From Myxococcales bacterium (lineage in GTDB: Bacteria; Myxococcota; Myxococcia; Myxococcales; Myxococcaceae), in contig JACPVI010000038.1 in the NCBI GenBank assembly GCA_016191815.1, positions 1 to 32,454 of the forward strand: DNA of 32,454 nucleotides, written 5' to 3'. This document shows positions 3,377 to 27,856 of this stretch, one piece after another. The notes below the pieces were generated by a model, which ran no database searches, was not told the DNA's origin, and saw only the letters and a program-made list of their open reading frames with translations. The number at the start of each line of letters is the position of its first letter. Position 1 is the first letter of the stretch. Both the position numbers and the translations under genes were made by a program.

Positions 3377-4020
3377 AAAGCCTCACCATCAAGGAAGAGG
3401 CAGTGGACGACGCAATCCTGGCGGTGGCGCTCCTCCGCTCGCGCCCGGAGGTGGAGGCCCACCGCGTCTTCCTCCTCGGCCACAGCCTGGGAGGAAGCCT
3501 GGCCCCGCGGATCAGCGCGGCGGACCCGGCCATCGCCGGCCTGGTGCTGCTGGCCGCCTCCGCCCGCCCGATGGAGGACGCCATCGTCGGGCAGACCCGC
3601 TACCTCCACTCGCTGGACGGCAAGCTGAGCGAGGAAGAGAAGGCCCAGCTCGAGGAGCTGTCCGCGCAAGCGGCGATGGTTAAGAGCCCGGAGCTGCCCG
3701 CCGACGACACCGTGCTCGGCGTTCCCGGCAGCTACTGGCTGGACTTGCGCGGCTACGATGGGCCGAAGCTCGCCGCCTCGCTAGGGATGCCGATGCTGGT
3801 GCTCCAGGGAGGGCGCGACTATCAGGTGACCGAGTCCGAGCACGCCACTTGGAAGCAGGCCCTCTCCTCGAGGAAGGACGTCACCTTCAAGGTGTATCCG
3901 GAGCTGAACCACCTCTTCGTCCGCGGCCAGGGGAAGTCCACCCCCCAGGAGTACTCCCAGCCGGGAAAGGTGGAGGAGGCGGTGCTCGAGGACGTGGCCT
4001 CCTTCGTGAAGTCGCACTGA
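3310..4020 (+). pseudogene. Alpha/beta hydrolase lacking its N-terminal part
   Basis: The frame reads RGVAVLRYEKRT, VDDAILAVALLRSR and VFLLGHSLGGSLAPRI, then a lid-like region, then MLVLQGGRDYQV and YPELNHLF. These correspond to the nucleophile elbow (GHSLGG, Ser), the acid (GGRD, Asp) and the catalytic His (NHLF) of a serine alpha/beta hydrolase of the acyl-esterase or dienelactone-hydrolase type. In such proteins a signal peptide, often an extra domain and the first beta strands with the oxyanion region precede RGVAVLRYEKRT. Here that part is replaced by the end of the DTW gene. The only starts are internal (GTG 3316, ATG 3373), giving a protein without a complete fold. Although the whole triad remains, the product is probably inactive. 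Confidence 0.7.
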
Positions 4021-4164: not shown

Positions 4165-4791
4165 CTACTGGGCTGGGGCAGGAGGGGCGGCGGCGTCGGC
4201 GGGAGCAGCGGCTGCCTCGGCCGCCTTCTTCGCCGCCTCGGTCTCGGCGAGTTGCTTTTTTTGCTCGGCCTCCGCGAGCGCCTTGAGGTTGGCGAGGCCC
4301 TGCTCGAAGTCCTTGCCCATCATCTGGTCCATGTCCATGAAGAGGGTCATGGCCTTGCCCATGAAGTCGTTGTTGCCGTTCACCGCCCAGGTGACCTGGG
4401 TGCCGGCCTGCTCCGGCTTGAAGAGGAACTCCACCGAGTTAGTGGCCTGCCAGGGCCGGATGAACTCGAGCTTGATGTCGATGCGCTCGGAAGGCTTGAG
4501 GGCGGTGATGGTCATCTTTCCTTCGCCCACCTGGTCGTTGCCGGACCAGTGGTGGCTCGCGCCCACGCCCGCCTCCGGCCCTTCGAAGGTCTTCTTCTGG
4601 TTGGGGTCCAGCTTCTCCCAAGGAGACCAGGCCGCCCACTTGTGGAAGTCGGAGACCTGGGCGAACACCAGCTCCGGCGGGGTGGAGATGGCAGCCGAGC
4701 GCTCCACGCGATAGGTGGACGGGCGAGTGGCGATCACCGCGACCAGCACCACCACCAAGAGCGCGACGAGGATGAGAAGCTTCTTCAACAT
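4165..4791 (-). CDS. Membrane-anchored SRPBCC (START-like) family protein
   Basis: A 208-residue protein. Residues 4-22 (KLLILVALLVVVLVAVIA) form a single hydrophobic anchor. They are followed by YRVERSAAISTPPELVFAQVSDFHKWAAWSPWEKLD, the classic opening of polyketide-cyclase/SRPBCC domains, and the fold continues to about residue 160. The last 45 residues are a Lys/Glu then Ala/Pro-rich tail (AEAEQKKQLAETEAAKKAAE). This family binds hydrophobic ligands in a helix-grip pocket; the ligand here cannot be told. The ATG at 4791 is preceded by a purine-rich AAGGGGG about 7 bases upstream. The N-terminus faces the hsdM fragment, and the 3' end converges with the hydrolase remnant across 144 gene-free bases. 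Confidence 0.85.
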   Translation of the reverse strand: MLKKLLILVALLVVVLVAVIATRPSTYRVERSAAISTPPELVFAQVSDFHKWAAWSPWEKLDPNQKKTFEGPEAGVGASHHWSGNDQVGEGKMTITALKPSERIDIKLEFIRPWQATNSVEFLFKPEQAGTQVTWAVNGNNDFMGKAMTLFMDMDQMMGKDFEQGLANLKALAEAEQKKQLAETEAAKKAAEAAAAPADAAAPPAPAQ

Positions 4792-5992
4792 GAGCAGCCC
4801 CCCTTCTGGGTTTCCGCGTGTCTATCGCGCGGCTCGCCCGCGAACAAGCAGCGATAGCGCCACAGCTGTTCCGAGCGAGAGCCTGCTACGGCGCCTTCTC
4901 GAGGACCTCCTGGACAAGGTCGTCGCCAACGACGGCGTGGCGACCAGACGCGAGGAACAGCTGAATCAGATCTGCAACCTGCTTCTGCTCAAGCTCGATT
5001 GCGACCGGCGTGCGCATTCGACCGATGATCCGCCAATCTTTTGCCCGCGCTCTTCGCCCTCGCACACCGCTCGGGAGGTGCGGCGGGCCTTCCTGAAGCT
5101 GGCCAGGGCATCGCCCTCCGTCTTCCTCGAGGACTCGGATCGGGAGCTCCGCTTGAGCGACGAGACCATCGCTCTCGCCGTGGAGCGGCTGGCCCCCTAT
5201 CGCCTCATGGATGTCGGCGTGGCCTCGATGGCGGTGGCGTTTCAGGTGCTCCGCGCCGCCACGCTCAAACAGGGCGAGGGCCAGTTCTTCACGCCCCAGC
5301 AGGTCATCCAGGCCGGCGTTCGACTGCTCCAGGTGGGCTGGGACGACCTCGTCATCGATCCGGCCTGCGGCACCGGCGGATTCCTGGTCGAGGTGCTGCT
5401 CGAAATGCAGCGGAAGTATCCGGGCCATGAGCAGGACCTCTCGCGATGGGCGCGGGAGCACGTCTGCGGCATCGACAAGGATGGGATCGCGGTGAAGCTC
5501 ACCAAGGCGGTGATGCAGATCGCCGGGGACGGGTCGGCGAGCTGCGTTCGCGGTGACTCGGTCCGCACTCACCTGTGGTCCACCGGATACCGGCAGCTGC
5601 TAGGAGGCTGCTACCAAGACGGGCGCTTCTCGGTGGTGCTGACCAACCCTCCGTTCGGGGTGAACCTCAAGGTCTCCGCCGCCGACGCCCAGCAGGCGGG
5701 CCTCGACATCGCCAAGTGCGGAGGCGCCGAGTTTCAGGACCTGGAGATCGGCCTCGTCTTCCTCCAGCGGGCGCATCAACTGCTCCGGGTGGGCGGCCGC
5801 CTCGGCATCATCCTCCCGGAGACCTACTTCTTCTCGGAGAACTACAAGTTCGTGCTCGAGTGGCTCCGGCCCCGGCTCAAGCCCGAAGTGGTCCTCAACG
5901 TCCCCATGGAGGCCTTCCAGGGCTTCTGCCGCGCGAAGACCAACTTCTACGTCTTCCGGAAGATTGCCGGCGAGGAGCAGGTCAATGGATGA
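4790..5992 (+). CDS. hsdM: Type I restriction-modification DNA methyltransferase subunit (HsdM-like), N-terminus abnormal
   Basis: An N6-adenine DNA methyltransferase. The SAM-binding motif I is DPACGTGGF at about residue 190 and the catalytic NPPF lies at about 286. The segments QGEGQFFTP and LPETYFFSENY are typical of HsdM. The convincing family sequence begins only at LLRRLLEDLLDKVVANDGV (about 4883). Before that, the in-frame ATG at 4790 lies on the start codon of the divergent SRPBCC gene, and its first 30 residues look non-biological. Relatives known to me carry a further N-terminal domain, so this copy is probably 5' truncated. Other possible starts are CTG 4883 and GTG 4937. It overlaps hsdS by 8 bases. 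No hsdR is present in the window, so restriction activity is not supported. Confidence 0.75.
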   Translation: MSSPPSGFPRVYRAARPRTSSDSATAVPSESLLRRLLEDLLDKVVANDGVATRREEQLNQICNLLLLKLDCDRRAHSTDDPPIFCPRSSPSHTAREVRRAFLKLARASPSVFLEDSDRELRLSDETIALAVERLAPYRLMDVGVASMAVAFQVLRAATLKQGEGQFFTPQQVIQAGVRLLQVGWDDLVIDPACGTGGFLVEVLLEMQRKYPGHEQDLSRWAREHVCGIDKDGIAVKLTKAVMQIAGDGSASCVRGDSVRTHLWSTGYRQLLGGCYQDGRFSVVLTNPPFGVNLKVSAADAQQAGLDIAKCGGAEFQDLEIGLVFLQRAHQLLRVGGRLGIILPETYFFSENYKFVLEWLRPRLKPEVVLNVPMEAFQGFCRAKTNFYVFRKIAGEEQVNG

Positions 5993-6923
5993 GGTCGTCC
6001 TCCTCAACCCCGCCACCTGCGGCATCTACAAGGACGGCGGCGGCCGCTACAAGGTGGACTCCACGACTGGCGAGCGCACTGGCGAACTGGACAACGAGAT
6101 GGCCGAGCAGGTCGAGGCCTACCTCTCCGGAAAGCCGGTGCCCGGCATGGCGCGCGTGCCTCTTGCCCAGGTGTACGCCGGGCGGATCCTGGTGCCTCGC
6201 TACTACGACTCGAGATGGGGAGAGCCCTTCGCCAAGCTGTGCGAGGTCGAGGGTTGGTCGGCGGTCAGCCTCGGCAAGCTGGAGGACGATGGAATCATCC
6301 AAGTCCGCGGCGGCCACGGCAGCCCGAGCAACGACAGGCGGCGCGGCCACATCCCCTACATCAAGGTGAGCGACATCCGGAGCCTCCGGGTCAACGTCAA
6401 CCCCACCAACCTGGTCTCCGAGGCAGTCGCGCGCTCCTTCTGGCGCGGGGCGACGAGCGGACTGGAGGCCTGGGACCTCATCAGCCCCAACCGCGCCAGC
6501 TCCAACATCGGCGAGTTCGCCATCCTCCTGCCCGGCGAGGAGCAGATGGTCCTCACCAAGGAAGTCTTCGTCATCCGCATGGCCGCCGGCGAAAGGCAGG
6601 GCTGGTCGCCGTTCTTCCTCTTCTGGGCCCTCTGCCTCAAGGCGGTGCGCCTCCAGTGGCAGCGGGTGGCCCTGATGCAGACCAACCGCGAGGACGTGGG
6701 AAAGCGGTACCGGGAGATTCTCGTTCCCCAACCCAAGAGCAAGGACTGGGCGGAGAAGGCCTGCGGCGCCTTCCGCCAGTACTTCACCACCCTCGCCGGC
6801 GCGCGCTCGGACTTCTGCACGCGGCTGCGCGGCTCCCGCCTGGAGTACATCGCCAGCGCGCTCTCCGCCGTGCCTCCTCCCGTCTCTGACAGCTCCGAGC
6901 CGGACGATTCCGAGCCGGGTTGA
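5985..6923 (+). CDS. hsdS: Type I restriction-modification specificity-like subunit (HsdS)
   Basis: 312 residues from the ATG at 5985, which overlaps the hsdM stop in ATGGATGA and implies translational coupling. An N-terminal part (VVLLNPATCGIYKDGGGRYK) looks like a continuation of methyltransferase sequence. It is followed by a single target-recognition-like domain: WSAVSLGKLEDDGII, GRGHIPYIKVSDIR-like text, SSNIGEFAILLPGEE and ALMQTNREDVGKRYREILVP, which matches the typical ending of a specificity half. Standard HsdS has two target-recognition domains, whereas this protein has one, so it may act as a dimer or recognise a half site. It may also once have been part of one chain with hsdM. The acidic C-terminus ends at 6923. 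Confidence 0.7.
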   Translation: MDEVVLLNPATCGIYKDGGGRYKVDSTTGERTGELDNEMAEQVEAYLSGKPVPGMARVPLAQVYAGRILVPRYYDSRWGEPFAKLCEVEGWSAVSLGKLEDDGIIQVRGGHGSPSNDRRRGHIPYIKVSDIRSLRVNVNPTNLVSEAVARSFWRGATSGLEAWDLISPNRASSNIGEFAILLPGEEQMVLTKEVFVIRMAAGERQGWSPFFLFWALCLKAVRLQWQRVALMQTNREDVGKRYREILVPQPKSKDWAEKACGAFRQYFTTLAGARSDFCTRLRGSRLEYIASALSAVPPPVSDSSEPDDSEPG

Positions 6924-7012
6924 CCAAGCGGCTCACCGCGGGGGAGGGGATCCGCTTGCCGGCCACCGCCCTCCGGCGATACTCGGCCGCCGGACCCTTT
7001 CGCCGAGTACTC

Positions 7013-7957
7013 GTGCCCACGCTCCCGGCAGCTCTGGCGCTGCTCTTGTCCCAGACCGGGACGCCGATGCTCAGGGTCCAACCCGAAGCGATTCCCCCTT
7101 GCGCGCACGGCATCGCCCTCCTCGAGGCCATCCGCACCCGCTCTCCCGGCGTGCTGGTGGCGGTCGGCCAGCCGACCGGCGACGACTTGTCCGTGGCCGT
7201 CAAATCCGAGGGCGCCTCCTGGATGCTCACCGTCCAGCGCCCCGGCGGGGACTTGGCCATGCAACGGCAACTCGATGCCGCCGGCCTCTCCTGCGAGCAG
7301 CTCTCCGACATCGCCGCCCTCATCCTCGACCGCTTCCTCCTCCAAATCGAATGGAAGGGCCGGCCGGAGGAACTGCCCCCCTTGCCGCCCCCTCCGCTCC
7401 CTGAGCCCCCCGTCTCGCCGCCGCCGCTCTTCACCGGCCTCGAGGCCTCGCTCGGCCCCGCGCTCAGGGCCGGCCTCCCAATCAGCGCCGAGCCGTTCGG
7501 CTCTCTCGAGGTGGGCACGCGCTCGGGCGCCTACCGCGCCTCCCTGGCGCTTTGGGGCGGCCTTTCCTCCCGTACCCCGGTGGAGGCGGACGGCGCTTCC
7601 CGCGGAGTCTTCCGCCGCCAGTCCTTCCTCGGCCTCGCCGCGCTCGGCTACTGCGCCCCGCTGGCAGGGATGGACGGCTGCGCCGGACTGACCGCGGGAC
7701 TCGAATTGGCCACCGCCGACGCTCAGGGCCAGTACCTCTACCGGCGAAACCCGCAAGCCCAGTGGCTCCCCTCCGCCGGAGGAATGGGGCGCCTCTGCCA
7801 GCCTCTCCCTTTCTGGGGGCTTTTCCTCTCCGCCGACCTCGCCTTTCTCTTCTCCCTCGGCTCCTCCCGCCTGGAAGTCGAAGGGACCGGTGTCGGATAC
7901 TCCCCTCCATCCGTGGGGGCGCTCGCCTCGCTGCGGCTGGGCCGGAGATTTTTTTGA
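7013..7957 (+). CDS. Predicted outer-membrane beta-barrel protein of the sigma/FecR locus
   Basis: Unknown myxobacterial-type envelope protein of about 314 residues. GTG 7013 gives a short signal sequence (VPTLPAALALLLSQTGTP). A TTG at 6920 would extend it by 31 residues, including two Arg pairs, and cannot be excluded. An N-terminal periplasmic-type domain of about 100 residues is followed by a Pro-rich linker (PPLPPPPLPEPPVSPPP). The remaining 190 residues alternate small and hydrophobic residues with Gly and aromatics and end in RRFF, the terminal Phe typical of beta-barrels. It lies directly before an ECF sigma gene, and the promoter-like element of that gene overlaps its stop codon. Its function is unknown; a role as sensor or cargo of the envelope regulon is an inference. 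Confidence 0.6.
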   Translation: MPTLPAALALLLSQTGTPMLRVQPEAIPPCAHGIALLEAIRTRSPGVLVAVGQPTGDDLSVAVKSEGASWMLTVQRPGGDLAMQRQLDAAGLSCEQLSDIAALILDRFLLQIEWKGRPEELPPLPPPPLPEPPVSPPPLFTGLEASLGPALRAGLPISAEPFGSLEVGTRSGAYRASLALWGGLSSRTPVEADGASRGVFRRQSFLGLAALGYCAPLAGMDGCAGLTAGLELATADAQGQYLYRRNPQAQWLPSAGGMGRLCQPLPFWGLFLSADLAFLFSLGSSRLEVEGTGVGYSPPSVGALASLRLGRRFF

Positions 7958-7984
7958 AGGCTGCAACGGGGTCGAGCCATTCAC
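7949..7984 (+). promoter_or_regulatory. Promoter-like element before the ECF sigma gene (copy 1)
   Basis: Seven T followed by GAAG (7949-7959), then 17 bases, then CCATTCAC (7977-7984). The same two blocks, with a 16-base spacer, stand before the lipoprotein gene at 10414-10448. The two-block layout and spacing fit a bacterial promoter read by one sigma factor. The element overlaps the 3' end of the preceding gene. Recognition by the ECF factor encoded next to it is an inference. Confidence 0.5.
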
Positions 7985-8040
7985 TGTCTTCGGAGGCGCC
8001 CCGCCCGCGGCGCGAGTATGCAGACGATGGGGAAACCGAG

Positions 8041-8586
8041 GTGGAATCCGAGCTGCTCGCGCGCTGCAGGGACGGCGACGAGGTGGCCTGGCGCGAGCTT
8101 TACCGCGCCCACTTCCCCTTCGTGTGGCGGGTGGCTCGCAGGCTGGGCATCCCTGACTCCGAGCGCGGCGACGTCTGCCAGGAAGTCTTCCTGGTCGCCT
8201 TCCGGAAGCTGGGCGCTTTCCGGCAAGGGCGGCTCTCCACCTGGCTGTACCGCATCGCGGCCAACGTCTGCTCGGACCGGCACCGGAGGCGGCGGCTCCG
8301 CGAGGCGCTGCTCTCGCTCTGGGGGGAGCGCCCCGCCGAGAAAGTCGCCCCGCGCACTCCGCTCACCGACTACGAGTCTCGCGAAGCGGAGGCCGCAGTG
8401 GGCGAGGTGCTCTCCCGCATGGCTCCCAAGAAGCGGGAGGTGTTCGCCCTCTACGAGCTGGAGCGGCTCTCCGCCGAGGAAATCGCCGAGAGGGTGGGCT
8501 GCAAGCTCAAGACGGTGTGGACCCGCCTGCACTACGCGCGGAAGGACTTCGAGCGCATCGCGAGGAAGCGGGGCTGCGTCCCTTAA
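8041..8586 (+). CDS. ECF-type RNA polymerase sigma factor
   Basis: 181 residues from GTG 8041, which follows a GGGG tract. Region 2 is ELLARCRDGDEVAWRELYRAHFPFVWRVARRLG, then DVCQEVFLVAFRKL and LSTWLYRIAANVCSDRHRRRR, the core-binding and -10-recognition helices. Region 4 is LSRMAPKKREVFALYELERLSAEEIAERVGCKLKTVWTRLHYARKDF, a -35-binding helix-turn-helix. No region 3 is present, as is normal for the extracytoplasmic-function class. It directs RNA polymerase to a small regulon in response to an envelope signal. The FecR-domain gene starts 3 bases after its stop, indicating co-transcription and a likely anti-sigma partner. A promoter-like element upstream recurs before the lipoprotein gene, which suggests autoregulation. 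Confidence 0.9.
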   Translation: MESELLARCRDGDEVAWRELYRAHFPFVWRVARRLGIPDSERGDVCQEVFLVAFRKLGAFRQGRLSTWLYRIAANVCSDRHRRRRLREALLSLWGERPAEKVAPRTPLTDYESREAEAAVGEVLSRMAPKKREVFALYELERLSAEEIAERVGCKLKTVWTRLHYARKDFERIARKRGCVP

Positions 8587-8589
8587 GAG

Positions 8590-10404
8590 ATGAGTCGCGA
8601 CGGACACAAGGAGCCTGCGAGGCTCGCCGACGGCGGTGGCACGGAGCCCCTGTCGCGCCTGTTGTCCGCGGTGGGCGAGGCGGAGCCACCCCTCGGGCTG
8701 GAGGAGGCGGTGTGGCGGAAGGTGCTCGAGGCTCGCCGCCCCCGTCCGCGCCGCTGGCTGTGGGCCGCGCTGGCGGTGCCGGCGTTGGCCTCCCTGGCGC
8801 TCGTCTTGGCTTGGCCTTCCAACCGCGAAGAGCCGGTGGCGGTGCTGGCCCTCGCCTCGGGAGAGGTCCGCCTCTTGAGGCCAGAGTCTGGCTGGTCCGA
8901 GGCGACGGTGGGCGAGAGGCTTGCGGCTGGCTCGCGGCTCTCCACCGCAAGAGAAAGCCGCGCCCTCTTGCGCATCGGCGGCACCGTCGCCCTGTTGGAG
9001 GAGAACGGCCGCGCCTCGGTGCAGCGGGGGAGCGGCGGACTCGCGGTGCTCTTGGAGGAGGGAGAGGTGGCGGTGCTCGACCGCCATCCGGGCACCACCC
9101 TGGCGCTTTTGGTGTCCGCCGGCGACTACGCCGTGGAGGCGGAGGGCACCTTCTACTCGGTGAAGGTGGCGGCGGACCGCGCGGTGGCGGTTCGGGTCCA
9201 CGAGGGAGTGGTGCGGGTGCGAGGGCCCTCCACCGACGTCCGGCTGCGCGGCGGGGAGGCGTGGGTCAGCGCGGGCCAGGCGGCATTCCGCACCGGCCAG
9301 CGGGAGCGGGCCCTGGCGATGTCGGTCTCCAGCGTGGAGACCGACGAGTCGAGCCTCCGCATCGAAGGGGAGCCGGACTTCGAGGTGGAGGTGGACGGAG
9401 TCTTCGTGGGCCGCCCGCCGGTGCGGATGCTGGTGGAGACCGGCAAGCGCTCGGTCATCGGCCGGCGGGAGCGGGCCGAGGTGCGCGGCGAGGCCACGGT
9501 GGATTGGGGGAGGGTGGCCGTCTACCGGCTCCAGCCCCCGGAGCTTCCGGCGCCTGAGGTTGGCTCGTGGCAGCCGTCGAAGGGCAAGACGGTTGCCGCC
9601 GCCGCTCCGGCCGGGCGCGCTGCGACCGGCATTTCACCGCCGCTTCCGGCCGCGGCGCCGGTTGACCGCTCCACGACCTTTGACATCGCGCCCGGCGCGC
9701 CGCCGGCGGTCCGGAGCCAACCGGGAAACGCCGACACCCCGGAGATTCCGCGCCGGACTCCCCCGGCGGATCCGCTGGAGTCGCTGGAAGCCCGCCTCGC
9801 TTCCGCCGCGCCGGAGGAGCGCGAAGAGCTGAGCTACCAGCTCGCCACCGCCCTCACCCGGAGGGGGCGTTACGGCGAAGCAGTGCGCCTCTACGAGTCC
9901 CTGGCCCGGGGCGGAGGCCGCCACGCCGAGCTCTCCGCCTACGAGGTGGGCCGGCTCAAGAAGCGCTACCTCGGCGACCGGGCCGGGGCCGTCGCCGCCT
10001 TCGCCGACTACCGCGCCCGCTTCCCCCGCGGCGCCCTCCGGCCGGAGGTGGACCTGAGCCTCATCGAGGCCCACCTCGAGGCCGGCTCCTTCTCCGCGGC
10101 ACTCGCGGAGATGGACTCCTTCCTCGCCACTCACCCCTCCAGCGAGCGCCGCGGCGAAGTGCTGCTCCTTCGCGCCAACGTCCTGAGAGAGCGCGGCGAG
10201 CACGAGCGCGCGCTGGCCGACTACCTCGAGCTGGTGGAGGTGCCCGGGACGCTGGGCGACGACGCCAGCTACTTCGCCGCCTCCTGCGAGCGGGCCACCG
10301 GGAGGCTGGAGGCCGCCCGGGCGAGGCTCGAGCACTACCTCTCGCGCTACCCGACCGGCCGCCACCGCCTCGAGGCGGAGCGGAATTTGGGAGCAGCGCG
10401 ATGA
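8590..10404 (+). CDS. FecR-domain transmembrane protein with PEGA-like and TPR regions (likely anti-sigma factor)
   Basis: 604 residues. The cytosolic N-terminus is about 55 residues and includes LSRLLSAVGEAEPPLGLEEAVWRKVLEARRP. One membrane segment follows (WLWAALAVPALASLALVLAW, about 56-75), then a periplasmic FecR domain (about 80-235; SGEVRLLRPESGW, LAAGSRLSTARESRALLRI, VEAEGTFYSVKV). A PEGA-like segment lies near 260-300 (FEVEVDGVFVGRPPVRM), then an Ala/Pro linker and a C-terminal repeat region of tetratricopeptide type (about 395-604; GRYGEAVRLYESLARGGG, AVAAFADYRARFPRG). FecR proteins pass envelope signals to a partner sigma factor. The gene starts three bases after the ECF sigma stop (ATG 8590, purine-rich AAGAG upstream). 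The TPR tail suggests assembly of a periplasmic complex. The anti-sigma role is inferred from position and topology. Confidence 0.85.
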   Translation: MSRDGHKEPARLADGGGTEPLSRLLSAVGEAEPPLGLEEAVWRKVLEARRPRPRRWLWAALAVPALASLALVLAWPSNREEPVAVLALASGEVRLLRPESGWSEATVGERLAAGSRLSTARESRALLRIGGTVALLEENGRASVQRGSGGLAVLLEEGEVAVLDRHPGTTLALLVSAGDYAVEAEGTFYSVKVAADRAVAVRVHEGVVRVRGPSTDVRLRGGEAWVSAGQAAFRTGQRERALAMSVSSVETDESSLRIEGEPDFEVEVDGVFVGRPPVRMLVETGKRSVIGRRERAEVRGEATVDWGRVAVYRLQPPELPAPEVGSWQPSKGKTVAAAAPAGRAATGISPPLPAAAPVDRSTTFDIAPGAPPAVRSQPGNADTPEIPRRTPPADPLESLEARLASAAPEEREELSYQLATALTRRGRYGEAVRLYESLARGGGRHAELSAYEVGRLKKRYLGDRAGAVAAFADYRARFPRGALRPEVDLSLIEAHLEAGSFSAALAEMDSFLATHPSSERRGEVLLLRANVLRERGEHERALADYLELVEVPGTLGDDASYFAASCERATGRLEAARARLEHYLSRYPTGRHRLEAERNLGAAR

Positions 10405-10413
10405 GCGGCGAAA

Positions 10414-10448
10414 TTTTTTTGAAGTGGGCGCCCCCTCGCCCCATTCAC
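10414..10448 (+). promoter_or_regulatory. Promoter-like element before the MopE-type lipoprotein gene (copy 2)
   Basis: Seven T followed by GAAG (10414-10424), a 16-base spacer and CCATTCAC (10441-10448). It is the same pair of blocks as at 7949-7984, and it lies just after the FecR gene stop. The start codon it would serve is the ATG at 10503, about 45-50 bases downstream. Confidence 0.5.
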
Positions 10449-10502
10449 CAGCCGATGGCGCGGGAGGGAGCCGGACTCCCCCGCGAGACTCGGAGAAATG
10501 AC

Positions 10503-11747
10503 ATGAAGCCATTCAGTGCGTTGCGCCTGCTCGGCGCGCTCTCGCTGGCGGCCTTGGGCTGTAGCGTCAACAACGGGCCGGTGGCGTCGAGGTACGTGAA
10601 GTCCGTCCCGGTGACCGCCTCACAGGGGGCCACCATCACCGTGAGCGCGGAGGAGAGCCCCGAGCTTGCCGGAGCCACCCTGGCCATTCCGCCCGGCGCC
10701 CTGGAGCGCGACCTCCGCATCACCCTGGAGCTGGGGCTGGAGCCGGTGGTGGCTGGGGTGGACCAGTCCGTGGGCCCGGTGGCGGTGTGGGGCCCGGCGG
10801 GGACCAAGTTCGCCCAGGAAGCGGAGATGACCCTCCCCTTCGCCCTCGCCGCGGAAGACCTCGCCTTGGACCTCTTCGTCCAGGTGCAGGAGGAAGACGG
10901 CACCCGCTCGGAAATCGCCAACGACCGCCTCACCATCGATGAGCAGGGAAAGCTGTTGCGCTTCAAGGTGTCGGGCTTCACCTCCTACCAGTCCGGCTCC
11001 CATGGTTGCTCGGGCAACCACCATTGCTCCTCCACCAAGGTTTGCCACAACGGCAAGTGCCGCCCGGCCAGTTGCACTCCCTCCGCGGAGGTGTGCGACG
11101 GGGTGGACAACGACTGCGACGGCGCGGTGGACGAGGGCTGCAACTCCGCCTGCAGCGCGGGCTCGGCCTGCCCGCCCGGCCACACCTGCGTCAACGGAGC
11201 CTGCCAGCCCTGCACCACCTCCAACTGCGGCCCCTACGACGCCGGGACGCCGATTGTTTGTGGAAACACCACCTGCGCCTCCGGCACCACCTGCTGCAAC
11301 GCGAGCTGCGGAGTCTGCGCCCCTGCCGGTGGAAGCTGCACCCAGCAAGTCTGCTGCAGCTCCGCCTACCCTTGCCCTTCCGGCCAGGCCTGCGTCAACG
11401 GCGCCTGCCAGCCCTCCTGCACTCCGTCGGCCGAGGTGTGCGACGGGGTGGACAACGACTGCGACGGCCAGGTGGATGAAGGGTGCACCATGCAATGCGG
11501 TCCGGGGACGGCCTGCCCCGCCGGCCACGTCTGCCTCAACGGGCAGTGCACTCCCTGCTCCAGCGGCGGCTACTGCCCCACCGACGGAGGCAGCAACACC
11601 ACCGACGGAGGAAGCTCCGCCACCTGCGGCGGCAGCGCCGCCTGCGCCACCGGGCAGGTCTGCCTGAACGGCAAGTGCCACTACAGCTGCAGCGCCGGCT
11701 CGGCTTGCCCCAACGGGCAGCAGTGCTACCAGGGGATTTGCTACTAG
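10503..11747 (+). CDS. Cys-rich lipoprotein with MopE-type metal-binding motifs
   Basis: 414 residues. The lipoprotein signal is MKPFSALRLLGALSLAALGC, with the lipidated Cys at residue 20. A beta-rich domain (about 35-160; ASQGATITVSAEESPELAGA, LAIPPGALERDLRI) resembles the ZU5-like domains found on bacterial surface proteins. The C-terminal 250 residues are very Cys-rich. They contain two almost identical 23-residue putative metal-binding motifs (11073-11141 and 11418-11486; core VCDGVDNDCDG, then VDEGC) and several GxxCxxGxxCxNGxC-like units. MopE-type motifs of this kind were named after a Methylococcus copper-binding surface protein; metal binding here is by analogy. The start ATG 10503 has GGAG 8 bases upstream. 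A promoter-like element and a strong terminator frame the gene, so it may be expressed separately from the sigma operon. Confidence 0.8.
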   Translation: MKPFSALRLLGALSLAALGCSVNNGPVASRYVKSVPVTASQGATITVSAEESPELAGATLAIPPGALERDLRITLELGLEPVVAGVDQSVGPVAVWGPAGTKFAQEAEMTLPFALAAEDLALDLFVQVQEEDGTRSEIANDRLTIDEQGKLLRFKVSGFTSYQSGSHGCSGNHHCSSTKVCHNGKCRPASCTPSAEVCDGVDNDCDGAVDEGCNSACSAGSACPPGHTCVNGACQPCTTSNCGPYDAGTPIVCGNTTCASGTTCCNASCGVCAPAGGSCTQQVCCSSAYPCPSGQACVNGACQPSCTPSAEVCDGVDNDCDGQVDEGCTMQCGPGTACPAGHVCLNGQCTPCSSGGYCPTDGGSNTTDGGSSATCGGSAACATGQVCLNGKCHYSCSAGSACPNGQQCYQGICY

Positions 11748-13818: not shown

Positions 13819-16404
13819 TTGGCAGCGCACCTTCTTCTAGCCCTCCTCGCGCTCGAGCCGCCGACGCTGCTCGCCGACTCGCCGGCGCGCTACCCGGAGG
13901 CCTGCCTCTCGGGGCGCCACCAGGGCGAGGTGAGGCTCGAGCTGTTGATCGACGAGCGGGGAGAGGTGGCCTCGGCGGAGGTGGTGTCCGGCTGGGACGC
14001 CGACTTCCAGGAGGCGGCGCTGCACGCCTCGGTGGGGCTCCGCTTCACCCCGGCGGAGCTCGAAGGCGTGGCGGTGCCGGTGAGGATGCTCTTCTCCTAC
14101 TTCTTCGAGCCGCCTCCGGAGCCGAAGAGGCCGCCCACCTCGCTGCTCCGAGGAGTGGTCCGCTCGAAGGGAAACCGCCGTCCCATCCCTGGCGCGAAGG
14201 TGAAGAGCAGCCTCGGTCCGGCTGCGGAGACCGGCCCCGATGGCCAATTCACTCTCGAGCTGCCGCCGATCGGCCAGCTGCTCGACGTCGGCGCTCCGGG
14301 ATTCAAGCCGTGGGTCTTCCGGGAGGATTTGGCCCGCGCGGGCGCGCTGGAGGTCATCTACTCGCTCGAGCCATTGGAGCTGAACCCCTACGAGACCATC
14401 GTCCACGGGGAGCGAGAGCGCACCGAGGTGGCGAGGGTGAGCCTCCAGGAGCAGGAAATCCGCGAGGTGCCGGGGACGATGGGGGACCCGTTCCGGGTGG
14501 TGATGCTCCTCCCTGGGGTTTCCAGCATCCTCTCCGGGGTGGCCTATCCGGTGGTGCGCGGCTCCAGCCCGGCGTCCACCGGGTACTTTTTGGACGGCAT
14601 CCGGGTGCCGCTGCTCTTCCACCTCTTTTTGGGCCCGGCGGTGGTGCACCCGGACTTCATCGACGGCATCGACTTCTACCCGGGCGGAGTGCCGGTGCGG
14701 TACGGGAGGCTTCTGGGCGGCGTCATCGACGGGCGGGTTTCCCGGCCGAGGGAGAAGGGGCCGCACGCCACCGCCTACGCCGACTTGATCAACGCCGGCG
14801 GCTTCGCCGAGTACACGGTGGAGAACACCGGCACCAACTTCACCCTGGCCGGGAGGCTCAGCTACACGCCCTGGCTGATCGCCCTGGCGGCCAACTCCTT
14901 CGCCCCGGAGTCGCCGCAGAAGGTGGTGATGGACTTCTCCGACTACCAGGCGCGGGTGGAGCAGCGGCTCTCCGCGGGCCGGCTCCGGCTACTCGCCTTC
15001 GGGAGCGCGGACGTGGTGGGGACGGTTCCCAAGGAGGGCCAGAGCGGGGGCGCGCTGTCGACCATCGCCTTCCATCGAGTGGACCTGCGCTACCGCCGGC
15101 CGCTCACGGTGGGCGATGCCGAGCTGGGCGTCACCTACGGGCTGGACCGCTTCAAGGTGGAGTCCACCGAGTCCCTTGGGAGGGCCGAGTTCGTGGTGGA
15201 CCAGCAGGACTTCGTGGCGCGCGCCGGCTGGTCGGGGAAGCTGGCCGAGGGCATCGAGGCCTCGGTGGGCGCCGACCTGGACCACAAGCGGGCCGACTTG
15301 TTGATTAGCTACGCCAGCGGCCCGGACGTGCAGCCCCAGGTCGCCACCACCGCAAGGGCGCCCTTGGCCATCGGCACCTTCTTCGGAGCGTACGGAGAGC
15401 TCTTGTGGAAGCGCGAGCCCCGCTGGACCTGGGTGCCCGGGGTGCGCTTCGACAACTACCACCTGGTTCCGGGCATCGACCATTGGTCGGTGGAGCCGAG
15501 AGTGACGGCGCGCTATCAGCTCCTCGAGGAGCTGGTGCTCAAGGGCGCCTTCGGCTTCTTCCACCAGCAGCCGACCCTGCTCATCCAGCTCCCGGTGGTG
15601 GACATCGCCTCGCTCCGCTACGGCTTGCAGGAAGGAGTGCAGGCCTCGGTGGGCGCCGAGTGGCGCGCGCTGAGGAACATCGAGGTGACCGCCGAGCTGT
15701 ACGTCAACCCGTTGCTCCGGACGATGGAAATCACCTTCCTCGACGACGAGCAGAGGCCTCCCCCCCAGGGCGGCGAGCCAGACCCCTTCTCGGTGGCGCT
15801 CCCGGGGAGGGCGGAGGACTACTCCTCGCACGGCTACGCCTACGGCTTCGAGCTGATGGTTCGCCACCCTTTGGGGGAGAACTGGTTCGGCTGGATTTCC
15901 TACTCGCTCCAGCACAGCGCGCGCTGGGGCGAGTACGCGCACTACAACGAGCACGGCGAACGGGTGGCCACCTACCGCGGTTACTTGCCTTTCCTCTTCG
16001 ACCAGACGCACGTCTTCAACGCGGTCTTGAGCTACCGCTTCCGCTCGGGCTGGACCGCAGGCGGAGTGCTCCACTTCAACACCGGTCGCCCGGAGATGGG
16101 CGGCCTCACCTCGCACACCCAGGTAGTCGGAACGGACCGCGCCGGCTGGCCCAGGTGGGTGCGCCTCGACAAGGACCGGGTCGATCGCCTCCCGCCGTTC
16201 TTCCGGGTGGATTTCCGAGTGGCGAAGTCCTGGGCCTTCGACACCTTCACCCTGGATGCCTACCTGGATTTCCTCAACGCCTCGATCAGCCAGGAAGTGG
16301 TCGCCTTCTCCTACGGCTTCGAGGAGCGCGCCGGGGTCCTGAAGAAGGAGGCTCAGGGCGTCGCCATCCCCCTCCCGATCCTCGGGGTGAAGGGGACTTA
16401 TTAG
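13819..16404 (+). CDS. TonB-dependent outer-membrane receptor with its own N-terminal TonB C-terminal-like domain
   Basis: 861 residues from TTG 13819, which is preceded by a strong Shine-Dalgarno (AGGAAGAGGA). A short signal sequence (LLLALLALEPPTLLA) comes first. Residues about 25-98 (GEVRLELLIDERGEVASAEV, FQEAALHASVGLRFTPA, VPVRMLFSYFFE) match the TonB C-terminal energy-transducer fold. A carboxypeptidase-regulatory-like domain (about 110-180; SLLRGVVRSKGNRRPIPGAK) is followed by a plug domain (about 205-310; VPGTMGDPFRVVMLLPGVS, YFLDGIRVP, PGGVPVRYGRLLGG). The rest, 320-861, is a 22-strand-type barrel. Such receptors import large or scarce ligands using the proton motive force; the ligand is unknown. 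It stands alone, divergent from the cyclase gene. The TonB-like domain is the oddity: it normally sits on a separate inner-membrane protein. Confidence 0.85.
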   Translation: MAAHLLLALLALEPPTLLADSPARYPEACLSGRHQGEVRLELLIDERGEVASAEVVSGWDADFQEAALHASVGLRFTPAELEGVAVPVRMLFSYFFEPPPEPKRPPTSLLRGVVRSKGNRRPIPGAKVKSSLGPAAETGPDGQFTLELPPIGQLLDVGAPGFKPWVFREDLARAGALEVIYSLEPLELNPYETIVHGERERTEVARVSLQEQEIREVPGTMGDPFRVVMLLPGVSSILSGVAYPVVRGSSPASTGYFLDGIRVPLLFHLFLGPAVVHPDFIDGIDFYPGGVPVRYGRLLGGVIDGRVSRPREKGPHATAYADLINAGGFAEYTVENTGTNFTLAGRLSYTPWLIALAANSFAPESPQKVVMDFSDYQARVEQRLSAGRLRLLAFGSADVVGTVPKEGQSGGALSTIAFHRVDLRYRRPLTVGDAELGVTYGLDRFKVESTESLGRAEFVVDQQDFVARAGWSGKLAEGIEASVGADLDHKRADLLISYASGPDVQPQVATTARAPLAIGTFFGAYGELLWKREPRWTWVPGVRFDNYHLVPGIDHWSVEPRVTARYQLLEELVLKGAFGFFHQQPTLLIQLPVVDIASLRYGLQEGVQASVGAEWRALRNIEVTAELYVNPLLRTMEITFLDDEQRPPPQGGEPDPFSVALPGRAEDYSSHGYAYGFELMVRHPLGENWFGWISYSLQHSARWGEYAHYNEHGERVATYRGYLPFLFDQTHVFNAVLSYRFRSGWTAGGVLHFNTGRPEMGGLTSHTQVVGTDRAGWPRWVRLDKDRVDRLPPFFRVDFRVAKSWAFDTFTLDAYLDFLNASISQEVVAFSYGFEERAGVLKKEAQGVAIPLPILGVKGTY

Positions 16405-18360: not shown

Positions 18361-18402
18361 CCCCCTCGCGCCGGACTGGACCGGCCAATGGGGGTTCTCC
18401 GA

Positions 18403-21400
18403 ATGTCGCGCCTTCGAAGCCTCGCGGCTGTTCTGATCACTGCGCTCGCGATTGGATGCAAGGAAGGGCCGCGCGGACCTGCCGGCAATGACGGTATCCC
18501 CGGCGAGCCGGGACCGCAGGGAGAATCAGGCGACGCCGGAGAGAAGGGCGACCCCGGCCAGCTCGGCCCGCCGGGCTCAGGCCTGACCACCATCACCAGG
18601 TACGACCCGCTGCCGGGGATCGTCGCCGAGATCACCTCGGTCACCGGCGGCACCGGGACGAACGGCAGCCTCAAGGCAGGCGACACCATTTCGGTGACCT
18701 ACACGGTGAAGAAGCCCACCGGCGACTCCTACGCGCCGGTGGAGCTCACCAGTGGCGGCATCCAGATGTCCGGGCCGGTGACGCACGGTATGCAGCGCGT
18801 CCTCGTGCAGCAGACCGACTTGGTGACCGCCTCGAAGGTCAACCCCGACGGCAGCTTCACCTACACCTTCACTTCGGCCATCCCTGACAAGTACGAGCCT
18901 CCGTACAACGACAGCCCCTCCTTCGGGATGGAGGACGACGAGATGACCGGGATGCCCCTGGAGGACGGCACCTACCGGGTGGCGTTGGAGATCCAGAAGG
19001 TCTACACCCTCAACGGCCGCCGGTTCACCGACCCTGCGTCGGCGACCAAGGACGTCCTGTTCGGAAACGCCGCCAGCGTCGTCGTGCACCAGGCGGTCGG
19101 CAACGACAACTGCGACGCCTGCCATGTGAGGCTGGCCGCGCACGGAGGCCGGCGGCCTGACGTGAGGTACTGCCCGACCTGCCACACCCCGGGCGCGGAG
19201 GACATGAACGTCGCCACCGTGGAGAACGGGACCCCGGGAGTGAGCGTCGAGTTCGGGGTGCTGATGCACCGGATCCACAACGGAAGCCACCTCCCCTCGG
19301 TGGTGGGGGTGGGGACCAAGTCCGACGGCACCCGCGACTACACCGTGGCTCCCAAGCCGCTCAAGCTCGTCCAGAGCTTCCAGAACCGGGTGAAGGACTA
19401 CTCGAAGAGCTCCTCGCCGATGATGCCAGGCGCCTACGCCGCGGCCCTGCTCACCCCAGACGGCGGCACCTATACCGGCATGGCGGGCAACGGACCGATG
19501 CCCCGCGACGTGGGCTACTCGGCGCTCGCGGCGGGGGACAAGCGCAAGGAAGACGAGGTCCGCACCGGCCTGGTGACCTGCGAGAAGTGTCACGGCGACC
19601 CAGACGGGGCGGGTCCGCTCACCGCGCCCCCGGGCGGCGACATGTACAAGGACGAGCCGGGCAAGCGCATGTGCGGGGCCTGCCACGACGATGTGGACTG
19701 GACCAAGCCCTACACCGAGAACGGCGCTACCCATCAGGCTCAAGCCGACGACACCAAGTGCGCCGACGCGCTCTGCCACACAGCGTCGGGAACGCCGATC
19801 TCGGTGGTAGATGCCCACACCCACCCGCTCAAGAACCCCGCGCTCAACTCAGGGGTGAACGTCAGCATCACCTCGGTCGGCGGCGGGACCGGCACCGGCG
19901 GAAAGCACAAGGCCGGTGACCCGATTCAGGTGACCTTCGAGCTCAAGGACGACAAGGGCACCGCCATCGCGCTCCACCCGCTCACCCGGTTCCAACTCAT
20001 CGTCACCGGGCCGACCACCAACCCGCAGTTCATCTTGCCGAACATCAACCTCTTCGACTTCTCCTGGCGAAAAGCGCCCGGGTTCGTGGGGAACGGGAAA
20101 ATCAGCAACCCGACCATCGCCCCCACCGCCACCAAGCAGACCCTCTGGGTGGTGTTCGGCGCGGGAGGGATGTTCGACGTGGACGGCTCCTCCACCGGCG
20201 CCCTCACCGGGCAGATGATCGGGGCGGCCAGCGGCTCGACCGCCACCGTCACCAACTACAACGGGGTGACCTTCACCATCACCCAGGGCAGCACTGCCTT
20301 CGCCGACGGCGACCGCTTCTACTTCGAGGTGATTCCCCCGGCGACCAGCTACACGGTGGAGATTCCGGTGGACATCACCATGGAGCGGGTGGGGGTCGCC
20401 ACCGGAGGCGCCGACATGCTGATGGTCGCCAACACGCCGCTCTATTGGGGCCGCGAGTCGGTCTTCGAGCGGACCGCCATCAACGCCGGCACCGTGCTCG
20501 GGGCGACTTCGGCCAAATTGGGGCGCTACGTGGTGGTGGACAAGACCGCCCTGGATGCAGCCCTCATCGCCAACGGCGACAAGGTGATCCTGGACGATGG
20601 GACCGCCAACGAGGAGTACTTGACCATCGCCCGCATCCAGACGACCGACGACTTCACCCTGCAGGACCTCGGCACGGCGGACCGGGTGTGGTTCTCCACT
20701 CCGCTCAGGTACGCGCACGCGGCGGGGGCGGCCATCCAGGAGGTGACGCTCTCCACGCGCCGCGAGGGAATTGCCTACAACGTCACCAACGCCGCGATGG
20801 GAGAAATCACCCTGGTCGCCGGGGCCTTCACCGCGGGCAACCCGGTGGTGGTGAGCTACCGCAGCCACGGGAGGTTCGGCTGGGTCCCGGCTCCCGGCGC
20901 CGCGCTCGACACCAGCTTCCCCGCGCCGCCGGCCGACTCGGACGACATCGACGTCTCCTGGGGCGACTGGAAGGGACTGCCGATCCTCGACGGCACCTAC
21001 ACCGTGGGTGCCTGGGCGAACAAGGACATCACGGTCGGTCCGGACGGCACCCTCAAGACCATCGAAGCATGGAACAACAGCGCCTCCGACAACACCACCT
21101 ACCGGAGCATCTCCCCGCCGGCGACCAAGACCTTCCTCTACGGCGCGGCCACCAAGCTGGAGCCCCGGGCGGTGGTCAGCTCGGGCGCGGCCTGTGACCG
21201 ATGCCACCAGGACCTCCAGGCCCACGGTTTCGGCCGAAGGGGCCTGGACACCTGCTTGGTGTGCCACGCGGTGAGCGGCACCGAGGACGGGCCCAAGTAC
21301 CAGTTCGGCTCCTGGTACGTGGGGGCCACTCCTGGCGCGGCGATGGAGTTCCGCTCGCTCCTCCACAAGGTCCACATGGGCAAGCTGGCCTCCAAGGCGA

Positions 21401-21723
21401 CCAAGTTCACCGTGAACGGCGTCTTCTTGGGCGTCCCCTATCCGGTCAACTTCTCTTCCATCAACGGCGAGATGGCGCGGGCCAAGGACTGCACCGGCTG
21501 CCACGGCGCCACCAACACCGCCTGGCAGCAGCCGGCGGCGCGCAAGCACCCGGCCAACCCGACCCCCACCCGAGCGTGGAGGTCCGCCTGCGGCTCCTGC
21601 CACGACTCCGATGCGGCGGGGGCGCACGTCGACCTCAACACCTTCCAGGGCGTCGAGGCCTGCCCGGTGTGCCATGCGCCGGGCAAGGAGTCCTCGGTCG
21701 CCACCGCGCACATCATTCGCTGA
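18403..21723 (+). CDS. OmcA/MtrC-type decaheme c-type cytochrome lipoprotein with collagen-like stalk
   Basis: 1106 residues. MSRLRSLAAVLITALAIGC is a lipoprotein signal with the lipidated Cys at 19; ATG 18388 is an alternative start five codons upstream. About thirteen Gly-X-Y triplets follow (18466-18580), then the four-domain layout of outer-surface decaheme cytochromes: beta domain, five hemes, beta domain, five hemes. Heme sites lie at 19111 (CDACH), 19171 (CPTCH), 19579 (CEKCH), 19672 (CGACH), 19759 (CADALCH, a CX4CH site), 21193 (CDRCH), 21253 (CLVCH), 21490 (CTGCH), 21589 (CGSCH) and 21661 (CPVCH). Relatives carry electrons across the cell surface to metals or other partners. No MtrA/MtrB-like partner lies in the window, so the electron route is unknown. 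Confidence 0.92.
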   Translation: MSRLRSLAAVLITALAIGCKEGPRGPAGNDGIPGEPGPQGESGDAGEKGDPGQLGPPGSGLTTITRYDPLPGIVAEITSVTGGTGTNGSLKAGDTISVTYTVKKPTGDSYAPVELTSGGIQMSGPVTHGMQRVLVQQTDLVTASKVNPDGSFTYTFTSAIPDKYEPPYNDSPSFGMEDDEMTGMPLEDGTYRVALEIQKVYTLNGRRFTDPASATKDVLFGNAASVVVHQAVGNDNCDACHVRLAAHGGRRPDVRYCPTCHTPGAEDMNVATVENGTPGVSVEFGVLMHRIHNGSHLPSVVGVGTKSDGTRDYTVAPKPLKLVQSFQNRVKDYSKSSSPMMPGAYAAALLTPDGGTYTGMAGNGPMPRDVGYSALAAGDKRKEDEVRTGLVTCEKCHGDPDGAGPLTAPPGGDMYKDEPGKRMCGACHDDVDWTKPYTENGATHQAQADDTKCADALCHTASGTPISVVDAHTHPLKNPALNSGVNVSITSVGGGTGTGGKHKAGDPIQVTFELKDDKGTAIALHPLTRFQLIVTGPTTNPQFILPNINLFDFSWRKAPGFVGNGKISNPTIAPTATKQTLWVVFGAGGMFDVDGSSTGALTGQMIGAASGSTATVTNYNGVTFTITQGSTAFADGDRFYFEVIPPATSYTVEIPVDITMERVGVATGGADMLMVANTPLYWGRESVFERTAINAGTVLGATSAKLGRYVVVDKTALDAALIANGDKVILDDGTANEEYLTIARIQTTDDFTLQDLGTADRVWFSTPLRYAHAAGAAIQEVTLSTRREGIAYNVTNAAMGEITLVAGAFTAGNPVVVSYRSHGRFGWVPAPGAALDTSFPAPPADSDDIDVSWGDWKGLPILDGTYTVGAWANKDITVGPDGTLKTIEAWNNSASDNTTYRSISPPATKTFLYGAATKLEPRAVVSSGAACDRCHQDLQAHGFGRRGLDTCLVCHAVSGTEDGPKYQFGSWYVGATPGAAMEFRSLLHKVHMGKLASKATKFTVNGVFLGVPYPVNFSSINGEMARAKDCTGCHGATNTAWQQPAARKHPANPTPTRAWRSACGSCHDSDAAGAHVDLNTFQGVEACPVCHAPGKESSVATAHIIR

Positions 21724-21846: not shown

Positions 21847-22518
21847 TTGCCCGCTGATGACACGGATGTTATCCATCGCGTGGTGGATGCCGGGTTCAAC
21901 TCCAGAGTCGCCGAGCGGATTACCGGCCTCAGCTACCGCCAGCTCGTCCACTGGGACGAGACCAAGCTCATTCGCCCCTCGGTCCGCCAGGCGAGCGGGC
22001 GTGGCACCCGCCGGGTGTACTCGTTCGAGGATCTGCTCGAGCTGCGCGTGGTCGCGACGCTCCGCCAGCGAGGCGTAAGCCTTCAATCGGTGCGCAAGAC
22101 GGTGGCGTACCTTCGCAGGCATCACCCCGAGCTGAGGCGACCGCTGGCCAATCTGACCTTCGTCACGGATGGGGCCTCCATCTTCGCGCTGACGGACGAT
22201 CCCGGAAGGGTGATCGATCTCACCGCGAGGGGCGAGGTGGTGATCGCGATGGCCGTTCGCCCGATGATCGAGAATCTGGAGGCCAAGGTGGCGGCGATGG
22301 CCGCGCCGCTTGAGGTCCAGGTGCCGGTGCGCGGGAAGAGGTACCGCGCCGTGCTCCACCCCGACCTCGGGGCGGGCGGCTACTGGATCGAGGTCCCGGA
22401 GCTGCCCGGTTGCCTGACCGAGGCCGATTCGGTAGCCGAGGCGCGCGCGATGCTTCGCGAGGTCATCGGTCTGTGGCTCGACGCCGAGGCCGACCGCGCC
22501 GCGAGCATCGCGAAGTAG
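21847..22518 (+). CDS. MerR-type HTH fused to a HicB-like antitoxin domain
   Basis: 223 residues from TTG 21847, with AGGCGG upstream. Residues about 15-85 form a MerR-like winged helix (SRVAERITGLSYRQLVHWDE, GTRRVYSFEDLLELRVVATL, RQRGVSLQSVRKTVAYLR). A central beta segment (about 98-130) of the kind found in stand-alone MerR-like regulators follows, then a linker. Residues about 155-215 match HicB: YRAVLHPDLGAGGYWIEVPELPGCLTEADSVAEARAMLRE is the usual pattern of the truncated RNase-H-like antitoxin domain. HicB normally neutralises HicA and carries a C-terminal ribbon-helix-helix or HTH; here the DNA-binding part is N-terminal and MerR-like. The HicA gene begins 5 bases downstream. The protein is probably antitoxin and autorepressor in one. 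Confidence 0.8.
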   Translation: MPADDTDVIHRVVDAGFNSRVAERITGLSYRQLVHWDETKLIRPSVRQASGRGTRRVYSFEDLLELRVVATLRQRGVSLQSVRKTVAYLRRHHPELRRPLANLTFVTDGASIFALTDDPGRVIDLTARGEVVIAMAVRPMIENLEAKVAAMAAPLEVQVPVRGKRYRAVLHPDLGAGGYWIEVPELPGCLTEADSVAEARAMLREVIGLWLDAEADRAASIAK

Positions 22519-22523
22519 TCGAG

Positions 22524-22745
22524 ATGGGCCGCATGTCCCAGGTCGAGGCTCGCAGGCTGCTGCGAGTGCTGCTCCGCCTGGGCTGGGCCGTTGTGCGCAC
22601 AAGCGGGCGTCACCAGGTGCTCAGCAAGCCGGGTCATTCGCCGCTGGCGATCCCCGTGCATCCTGGCTGCCTGAAGGAGGGGACTGCGCGGGCAATCCTC
22701 AAGCAGGCGGGTCTGACCGAGGAGGAGTTCTTCGCCGAATACTGA
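22524..22745 (+). CDS. hicA: HicA-family mRNA interferase toxin
   Basis: 73 residues from ATG 22524; ATG 22533 is possible. It follows the HicA double-stranded RNA-binding-like fold: EARRLLRVLLRLGWAVVRTSGRHQVLS, then AIPVHPGCLKEGTARAILKQAGLTEEEF. The His in SGRHQV is at the position of the catalytic His of the GSHH motif. Such toxins cut mRNAs in a translation-independent way. It comes 5 bases after the HicB-fusion gene, so the two form an operon, with the order antitoxin then toxin instead of the more frequent toxin first. The size and motifs are normal for the family. Confidence 0.85.
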   Translation: MGRMSQVEARRLLRVLLRLGWAVVRTSGRHQVLSKPGHSPLAIPVHPGCLKEGTARAILKQAGLTEEEFFAEY

Positions 22746-23617: not shown

Positions 23618-23819
23618 GGCTGGGCTCCTTTTGTTGGGGTTGAAGCTCATCACTTCGCCGGCCGCTGGCACGGCCAGCCGCTGGTATGCCACACAGACCG
23701 GCACCGCGCCGCTGCCCCGGCCGCCCATTCGTCGAAGAGGAAACCAAGCGCCCGTTGATGGTTGAATGGCGGACCCATGCGCTCCACTCCCCAAGTGCCG
23801 CCCTCGTCCTCGCCGCTTC

Positions 23820-23848
23820 CCCTCTCCCGCGAGCGGAAGAGGGTCAGG

Positions 23849-23856
<8 letters not shown>
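23820..23856 (-). repeat. Complete dispersed palindromic repeat (R4) inside the start region of the amidohydrolase gene
   Basis: CCCTCTCCCGC pairs with GCGGAAGAGGG (one mismatch) and is followed by TCAGGGTGAGGG. The reverse complement reads CCCTCACCCTGACCCTCTTC and matches the copy near 11765-11800. Relatives of this sequence type occur between genes in many GC-rich proteobacterial genomes. Here it overlaps the beginning of a long coding frame and contains the GTG codons at 23849 and 23855. Confidence 0.6.

Positions 23857-27856
<4,000 letters not shown>

Follow-up and report, generated by a model that had tools for sequence, protein, structure and literature searches.

A putative autoregulated two-promoter regulon of a myxobacterial ECF sigma factor with an AAG-type -35 box

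The DNA analyzed here, hereafter the window, is the whole stretch of 32,454 nucleotides of contig JACPVI010000038.1 from a Myxococcales bacterium (assembly GCA_016191815.1). It carries a locus of four genes, all on the + strand, coding an outer-membrane-protein-like (OMP-like) product, an ECF sigma factor, a FecR/TPR protein and a MopE-type lipoprotein. Two putative promoters, P1 and P2, precede the ECF and the lipoprotein genes, respectively. The order of features is the following.

6920 to 7957, + strand: OMP-like gene, a conserved member of the locus; its product ends in RRFF and its stop codon TGA lies within the P1 -35 box.
7949 to 7984, + strand: P1, putative promoter of the ECF operon; T-run 7949-7955, -35 box TGAAGG 7955-7960, 17-base spacer 7961-7977, -10 box CATTCA 7978-7983.
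8041 to 8586, + strand: ECF sigma factor gene with GTG start, 181 residues; Sigma70_r2, Sigma70_r4_2 and TIGR02937 (sigma70-ECF) domains; orthologues align from this start.
8518 to 8520, + strand: codon for W160, which belongs to the -35 recognition helix TVWTRLHYAR and aligns with sigmaE Arg171.
8590 to 10404, + strand: FecR/TPR membrane protein gene, putative anti-sigma factor; transmembrane helix at about residues 57-75, FecR domain and TPR repeats.
10414 to 10448, + strand: P2, putative promoter of the lipoprotein gene; T-run 10414-10420, -35 box TGAAGT 10420-10425, 16-base spacer 10426-10441, -10 box CATTCA 10442-10447.
10503 to 11747, + strand: lipoprotein gene, candidate P2 target; lipobox LAALGC and MopE metal-binding motifs (PF11617 Cu-binding_MopE, 1.4e-11).

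The 181-residue sigma factor has the sigma2 and sigma4 domains only, joined by a short linker, as defines ECF (group IV) proteins (PF04542 at residues 20-85, PF08281 at 119-168; TIGR02937 above its cut-off). The FecR/TPR gene starts three bases past the ECF stop codon in the window, overlaps the ECF gene by four bases in most orthologues, and is probably co-transcribed with it. Its product features a short amino terminus, which carries an ERVW/ERVWR-type motif in many orthologues, then a single hydrophobic helix near residues 57-75 followed by the FecR and TPR parts; the PF04773 FecR match scores 21.6 bits, the curated cut-off being 24. This is the build of a putative transmembrane anti-sigma factor with a cytoplasmic amino terminus, and at the gene level the protein has the attributes of membrane anti-sigma factors (adjacent, probably co-transcribed and single-pass, with the amino terminus in the cytoplasm). 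The lipoprotein gene starts 55 bases downstream of the P2 -10 box, and the MopE motifs of its product suggest metal binding. For the OMP-like gene (6920-7957) neither a Pfam match nor a promoter site of its own was found.

P1 is composed of TTTTTTTGAAG (7949-7959) and CCATTCAC (7977-7984) spaced by 17 bases, and P2 of TTTTTTTGAAG (10414-10424) and CCATTCAC (10441-10448) spaced by 16 bases, both on the + strand, giving T7GAAG-N17-CCATTCAC and T7GAAG-N16-CCATTCAC. The preliminary description of this DNA located the two-block elements exactly and was right that both blocks are identical; its count of nineteen shared bases rises to 20 with the A that precedes both T-runs. From base composition, about 2e-8 such elements are expected in the window by chance. 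Both CCATTCAC and TTTTTTTGAAG occur there only twice, and the looser pattern GAAG-N14-19-CCATTCAC has two matches against 0.04 in shuffled sequences. The genome-wide search that the same description had proposed, carried out over 6.77 Mb in 89 contigs, returned P1 and P2, both on the + strand, as the sole matches of TTTTTGAAG-N14-19-CCATTCAC. They were again the only ones for the trimmed pattern TTTGAAG-N14-19-CCATTCA, and a reversed-pattern control gave no match in the whole genome.

The position of the elements relative to stop codons differs from what was first described, namely that both immediately follow one. This holds for P2, where the preceding TGA (10402-10404) lies nine bases upstream of the T-run. 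At P1 the stop is inside the element: the TGA that ends the OMP-like gene (7955-7957) is the TGA of the -35 box TGAAGG, which explains why a stop codon was noticed there, and the T-run doubles as coding sequence at the end of the terminal RRFF. Promoter and upstream gene end are fused through this shared TGA in orthologous loci as well. Under a strict coding test, at least 15 of 25 P1-type sites have the TGA of TGAAGG or TGAACG as the in-frame stop of the preceding gene, four further loci resembling this pattern just below the threshold of the test; for P2-type sites the number is at least 6 of 21.

Orthologues of the sigma factor (44-65% identity) were identified by protein search in 17 of the 145 genomes of the order, the genome of the window included, and additional ones are present in other orders of the phylum. 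The DNA around them was compared in 17 loci besides the window and later in 16 more. The gene order OMP, ECF, FecR/TPR, MopE-type lipoprotein recurs across these loci, with the OMP gene unrecognized in several of them, mostly in a sister clade (clade B), and with some contigs ending early. A bipartite element is found ahead of both the ECF gene and the lipoprotein gene. TGAA[G/C]G-N16/17-CATTCA forms its conserved core; a T-run is frequent among loci yet not general, and is optional relative to the core. The preliminary description had named beforehand the lack of both blocks in orthologous loci as one refuting outcome: P1 and P2 are instead both kept in 16 loci from several families, and the blocks are present as well in loci of other orders of the phylum that had been held out. 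The blocks persist at 45-65% sigma factor identity while the spacer sequence does not. The P1 spacer is 17 bases long in 16 of 17 core loci and the P2 spacer has 16 bases in nine loci and 17 in seven. The recognition site first proposed is thereby retained as a two-block site without its T-run, its core being TGAAGG-N16/17-CATTCA (TGAACG in the sister clade).

The motif was also recovered when none was defined in advance. In a count of all tetramer pairs at spacings of 14-22, the top dyad of the P1 regions was TGAA-N20/21-TTCA (13 of 18 sequences), and the TGAA/TTCA dyad was again first in the P2 regions counted separately (14 of 16), shuffled sets reaching 5 at most. With matrices built by leaving out one locus at a time, P1 and P2 ranked first and second among all positions of both strands in 13 of 16 loci, and a matrix made from P1 sites alone placed P2 first in 15 of 16. 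Later loci that were outside motif training and bear the motif are L267, L268, L270, L271, L272 and L277. The leading matrix matches in the later loci included P2 in L267, P1 in L268, L276 and L277, and both sites in L270, L271 and L272; the same search found no site in L274 and L275, and no convincing P2 was found in L273. Note that the sites of the distant loci L181, L269, L273, L276 and L278-L282 were picked by eye.

The two sites of a locus share one variant, being either TGAAG-type twice or TGAACG twice. The clade of the window has TGAAG at both sites, and the sister clade B (L178, L179, L180, L207, L208 and L209) has TGAACG at both. Altered -10 boxes are likewise common to both sites: CCTTCA in L179, GTTGG in L176 and GCGGTGT in L269. 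The genome G144 codes two paralogues, of which the one on C104 has TGAAGG at both sites and the one on C103 has TGAACG at both. The simplest explanation for sites that vary jointly within a locus, yet differ from those of another locus in the same cell, is that the local sigma factor reads them. P1 and P2 co-vary not only with each other but also with the recognition helix of the neighboring ECF protein.

In sigmaE numbering, the variable G/C base of the -35 box is at position -31. In the crystal structure of sigmaE sigma4 with -35 DNA, the base of G'-31 bonds Arg171, and residues S172/T169 and R173/R176 contact -34 and -35 (PMC6713349). Met181 of Mycobacterium tuberculosis SigH contacts the equivalent part, and its substitution M181A relaxes specificity at -31 and -30 (PMC6411747). 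When the sigma factor of the window is aligned by phmmer to the sigma-H chain 6in7_B (AlgU type, GTVRSRIFRAR), its W160 (TVWTRLHYAR) falls on sigmaE/AlgU Arg171. Trp is found at position 160 in all 25 loci assigned TGAAG-type (or AAG-type), L181 having been read by eye, and the seven TGAAC-type loci all have Arg or Ala, Ala belonging to one distant TGAACG locus. The tree needs just two base changes at -31, hence two concordant Trp/Arg switches, which are too few for significance in a phylogenetic sign test. We infer that Trp160 itself may read base -31. Three ECF relatives (L280, L281 and L282) have TVWVWL instead of TVWTRL in the recognition helix; by eye, TAAGG(TT) replaces TGAAGG at both P1 and P2 in the first two, and AAAGGTT is found at P1 of the third. 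These sequences suggest that -35 specificity changed a second time, at -34/-35, and the occurrence of TVWVWL with TAAGG at both sites is in line with the sigmaE contact map. In the family f9 loci, whose -10 box is GTT-type, region 2.3/2.4 reads xHW[VI]HRI or AWLHRI versus TWLYRI elsewhere; that this change tracks the -10 box is only suggestive, f9 being one lineage.

The outer four bases of the blocks form inverted repeats (weakly inverted half-sites, TGAAnG/CATTCA) and TGAA/TTCA is the top dyad, as would also be expected of a dimeric operator, TGAA-N19/20-TTCA, through which a separate transcription factor controls both genes. We consider such an operator improbable and reject it as the main reading because its halves vary independently: clade B has TGAACG with CATTCA unchanged, and in L176 and L177 the second half is GTTGG/GTTTGG with the first still TGAAGG. 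Moreover, P1 and P2 differ in spacing by one base, all 33 core sites have the same orientation with the TGAA[GC]G half distal to the gene, and the variation tracks residues of the sigma factor.

With dozens of ECF candidates per genome, the sites might instead be read by another cellular sigma factor, by cross-talk or as the primary one, the local ECF protein having other targets. This is more improbable still. The strict motif has 18 matches in the 145 genomes of the order, and those at P1/P2 positions are in orthologue-bearing loci; each G144 paralogue adjoins a pair of sites of its own variant; residue 160 of the neighboring sigma factor agrees with the variable base at -31; and no sigma70-like promoter or hexamers were found in 7800-10650. 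Least probable of all is that T-run and GAAG are a non-regulatory by-product of the upstream gene end or of duplication, since, even though TTTTTTTGA of P1 encodes the two Phe residues and stop of the OMP-like protein and the -35 TGA is a stop codon in most P1 loci, the identical blocks of P2 lie in non-coding DNA in the window, many loci retain TGAAGG and CATTCA without T-run or terminal Phe pair, and the unrelated spacers speak against recent duplication.

The reading that we favor, with a probability of roughly 0.9, is that the neighboring ECF sigma factor recognizes P1 and P2 as promoters, which would constitute an autoregulated local regulon of two promoters with an unusual AAG in the -35 box, the product of 8041-8586 being their likely reader. 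A cognate motif precedes both the sigma factor gene and its candidate target, as in autoregulated ECF systems. Autoregulation had been proposed in the preliminary description, and conservation at both positions together with joint variation with the ECF helix supports it; the lipoprotein, also put forward there as a direct target, is a predicted one in view of the conserved, co-varying P2 ahead of its gene. Where canonical ECF -35 boxes have AAC, the window and the TGAAG-type loci have AAG; AAC is found only in the TGAACG sister clade, and CATTCA occupies the -10 box instead of a sequence with CGT.

In the mechanism proposed, the FecR/TPR protein coded by the same operon would tether the sigma factor to the inner membrane and release it in response to an envelope signal. 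The freed sigma factor would bind RNA polymerase, its region 4 reading TGAAG(G) and its region 2 opening CATTCA. Transcription from P1 would yield more sigma factor and anti-sigma factor, a positive autoregulation with built-in shut-off, and P2 would direct production of the MopE-type lipoprotein. Trp160 would replace the sigmaE Arg that contacts the -31 base pair and accompany G instead of C at that position.

Beyond these loci, most matches to TGAA[GC]G-N16/17-CATTCA fall within coding sequence, or are convergent or lack a plausible downstream gene; the regulon in this genome thus looks like essentially two promoters, P1 and P2. A match in G000:C53 was rejected as an extra target because it falls at the end of an XRE-type gene in convergent orientation, and 55 scattered matches in a scan of viral contigs were taken as chance in a far larger collection. 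Possible extra members were observed in two other genomes. L268 (G193:C512) has at position 3601, with the ECF gene on the + strand, a third strong site, TTTTTTTGAAGG-N17-CATCCA, before a NAD-dependent epimerase-like gene and 2.8 kb upstream of the ECF gene. In the clade B genome of L242 (G012:C799), an apparently non-coding TGAACG-N16-CATTCA at position 1501 precedes a small gene beginning MAIGKAAGNTGITGG.

The logic followed here is shared with earlier classifications of ECF groups, which rely on a motif before an autoregulated sigma factor gene and on residue-to-base rules. Promoters of autoregulated groups were reportedly predicted by Todor et al. in 2020 from conserved upstream motifs with rules linking residues to bases, and Casas-Pastor et al. 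in 2021 are said to have predicted ECF group promoters from conserved motifs upstream of autoregulated sigma factor genes. As hallmarks of ECF systems, a review (PMC8103513) lists a -35 box with AAC, a -10 box with CGT, positive autoregulation and an anti-sigma factor that is co-transcribed; it notes later relaxations and refers to the code of Todor et al. that links residues to bases. The present system appears to fit autoregulation and co-transcription and to depart from the AAC and CGT hallmarks quoted there.

It shares with Escherichia coli sigmaE and Pseudomonas aeruginosa AlgU the sigma2-sigma4 architecture, an operon with a membrane anti-sigma factor and an autoregulated promoter (features deduced here from sequence), as well as GAA in the -35 box, a similar -35/-10 spacing and the sigma4 helix TV-x-[ST]R. 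It differs in the -35 box (TGAAGG with G at -31 versus GGAACTT), in its CATTCA -10 box, in Trp versus Arg171, in a FecR/TPR-like protein in place of RseA and in a regulon of apparently two promoters. With FecI-FecR it has in common an ECF gene that is followed by one for a membrane protein with a FecR domain and that lies close to a gene for an outer-membrane protein. However, FecI-type systems are said to lack autoregulation (PMC8103513), whereas P1 precedes the sigma factor gene here, and the unit has no TonB receptor, the predicted target being a MopE-type lipoprotein. With an OMP-like neighbor that has no Pfam match, the locus does not correspond to FecI/FecR/TonB-receptor surface signaling. 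In SigW of Bacillus subtilis and SigH of M. tuberculosis the residue at the W160 position contacts the -31 (or -31/-30) base pair; it is Lys/Arg in SigW and Met in SigH, with C in the -35 box, and Trp here. No case of Trp at the equivalent position was found in the articles on sigma4/-35 contacts consulted here.

ECF autoregulation is ordinary; the interest lies in the Trp/AAG variant and in the paired covariation. We lean towards the view that this is a myxobacterial ECF family with AAG for AAC in the -35 box and Trp for Arg in the helix, whose sister clades, and even paralogues of the same cell, use both versions as insulated channels, both promoters of a locus switching together. The family, on which no experiments were found, would have both its recognition site and its target defined. 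It offers a natural, testable case of sigma factor and promoter co-evolution, in which W160 and base -31 predict promoter choice and G144, having both versions, provides a built-in control for cross-talk. MopE-type lipoproteins, whose regulation in these bacteria was not found described, gain a candidate regulator.

Other coding regions of the window have distinctive compositions. Upstream of the locus, an N-6 DNA methylase ORF precedes an ORF that has no Pfam match and may be a specificity-like partner (4715-6923). Downstream are a TonB-dependent receptor-like barrel with a TonB carboxyl-terminal domain at the start of the same chain (13819-16404), a large lipoprotein-like multihaem protein with MtrC/MtrF-type domains (PF22113), probably an outer-membrane cytochrome (18388-21723), and a MerR-type HTH fused to a HicB-like antitoxin domain in one ORF and followed by a HicA toxin (21847-22745). 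Finally, region 23762-27856 codes for a secreted protein that combines DUF4215 repeats, a partial amidohydrolase domain, thrombospondin-3 repeats and a lamin-tail domain.
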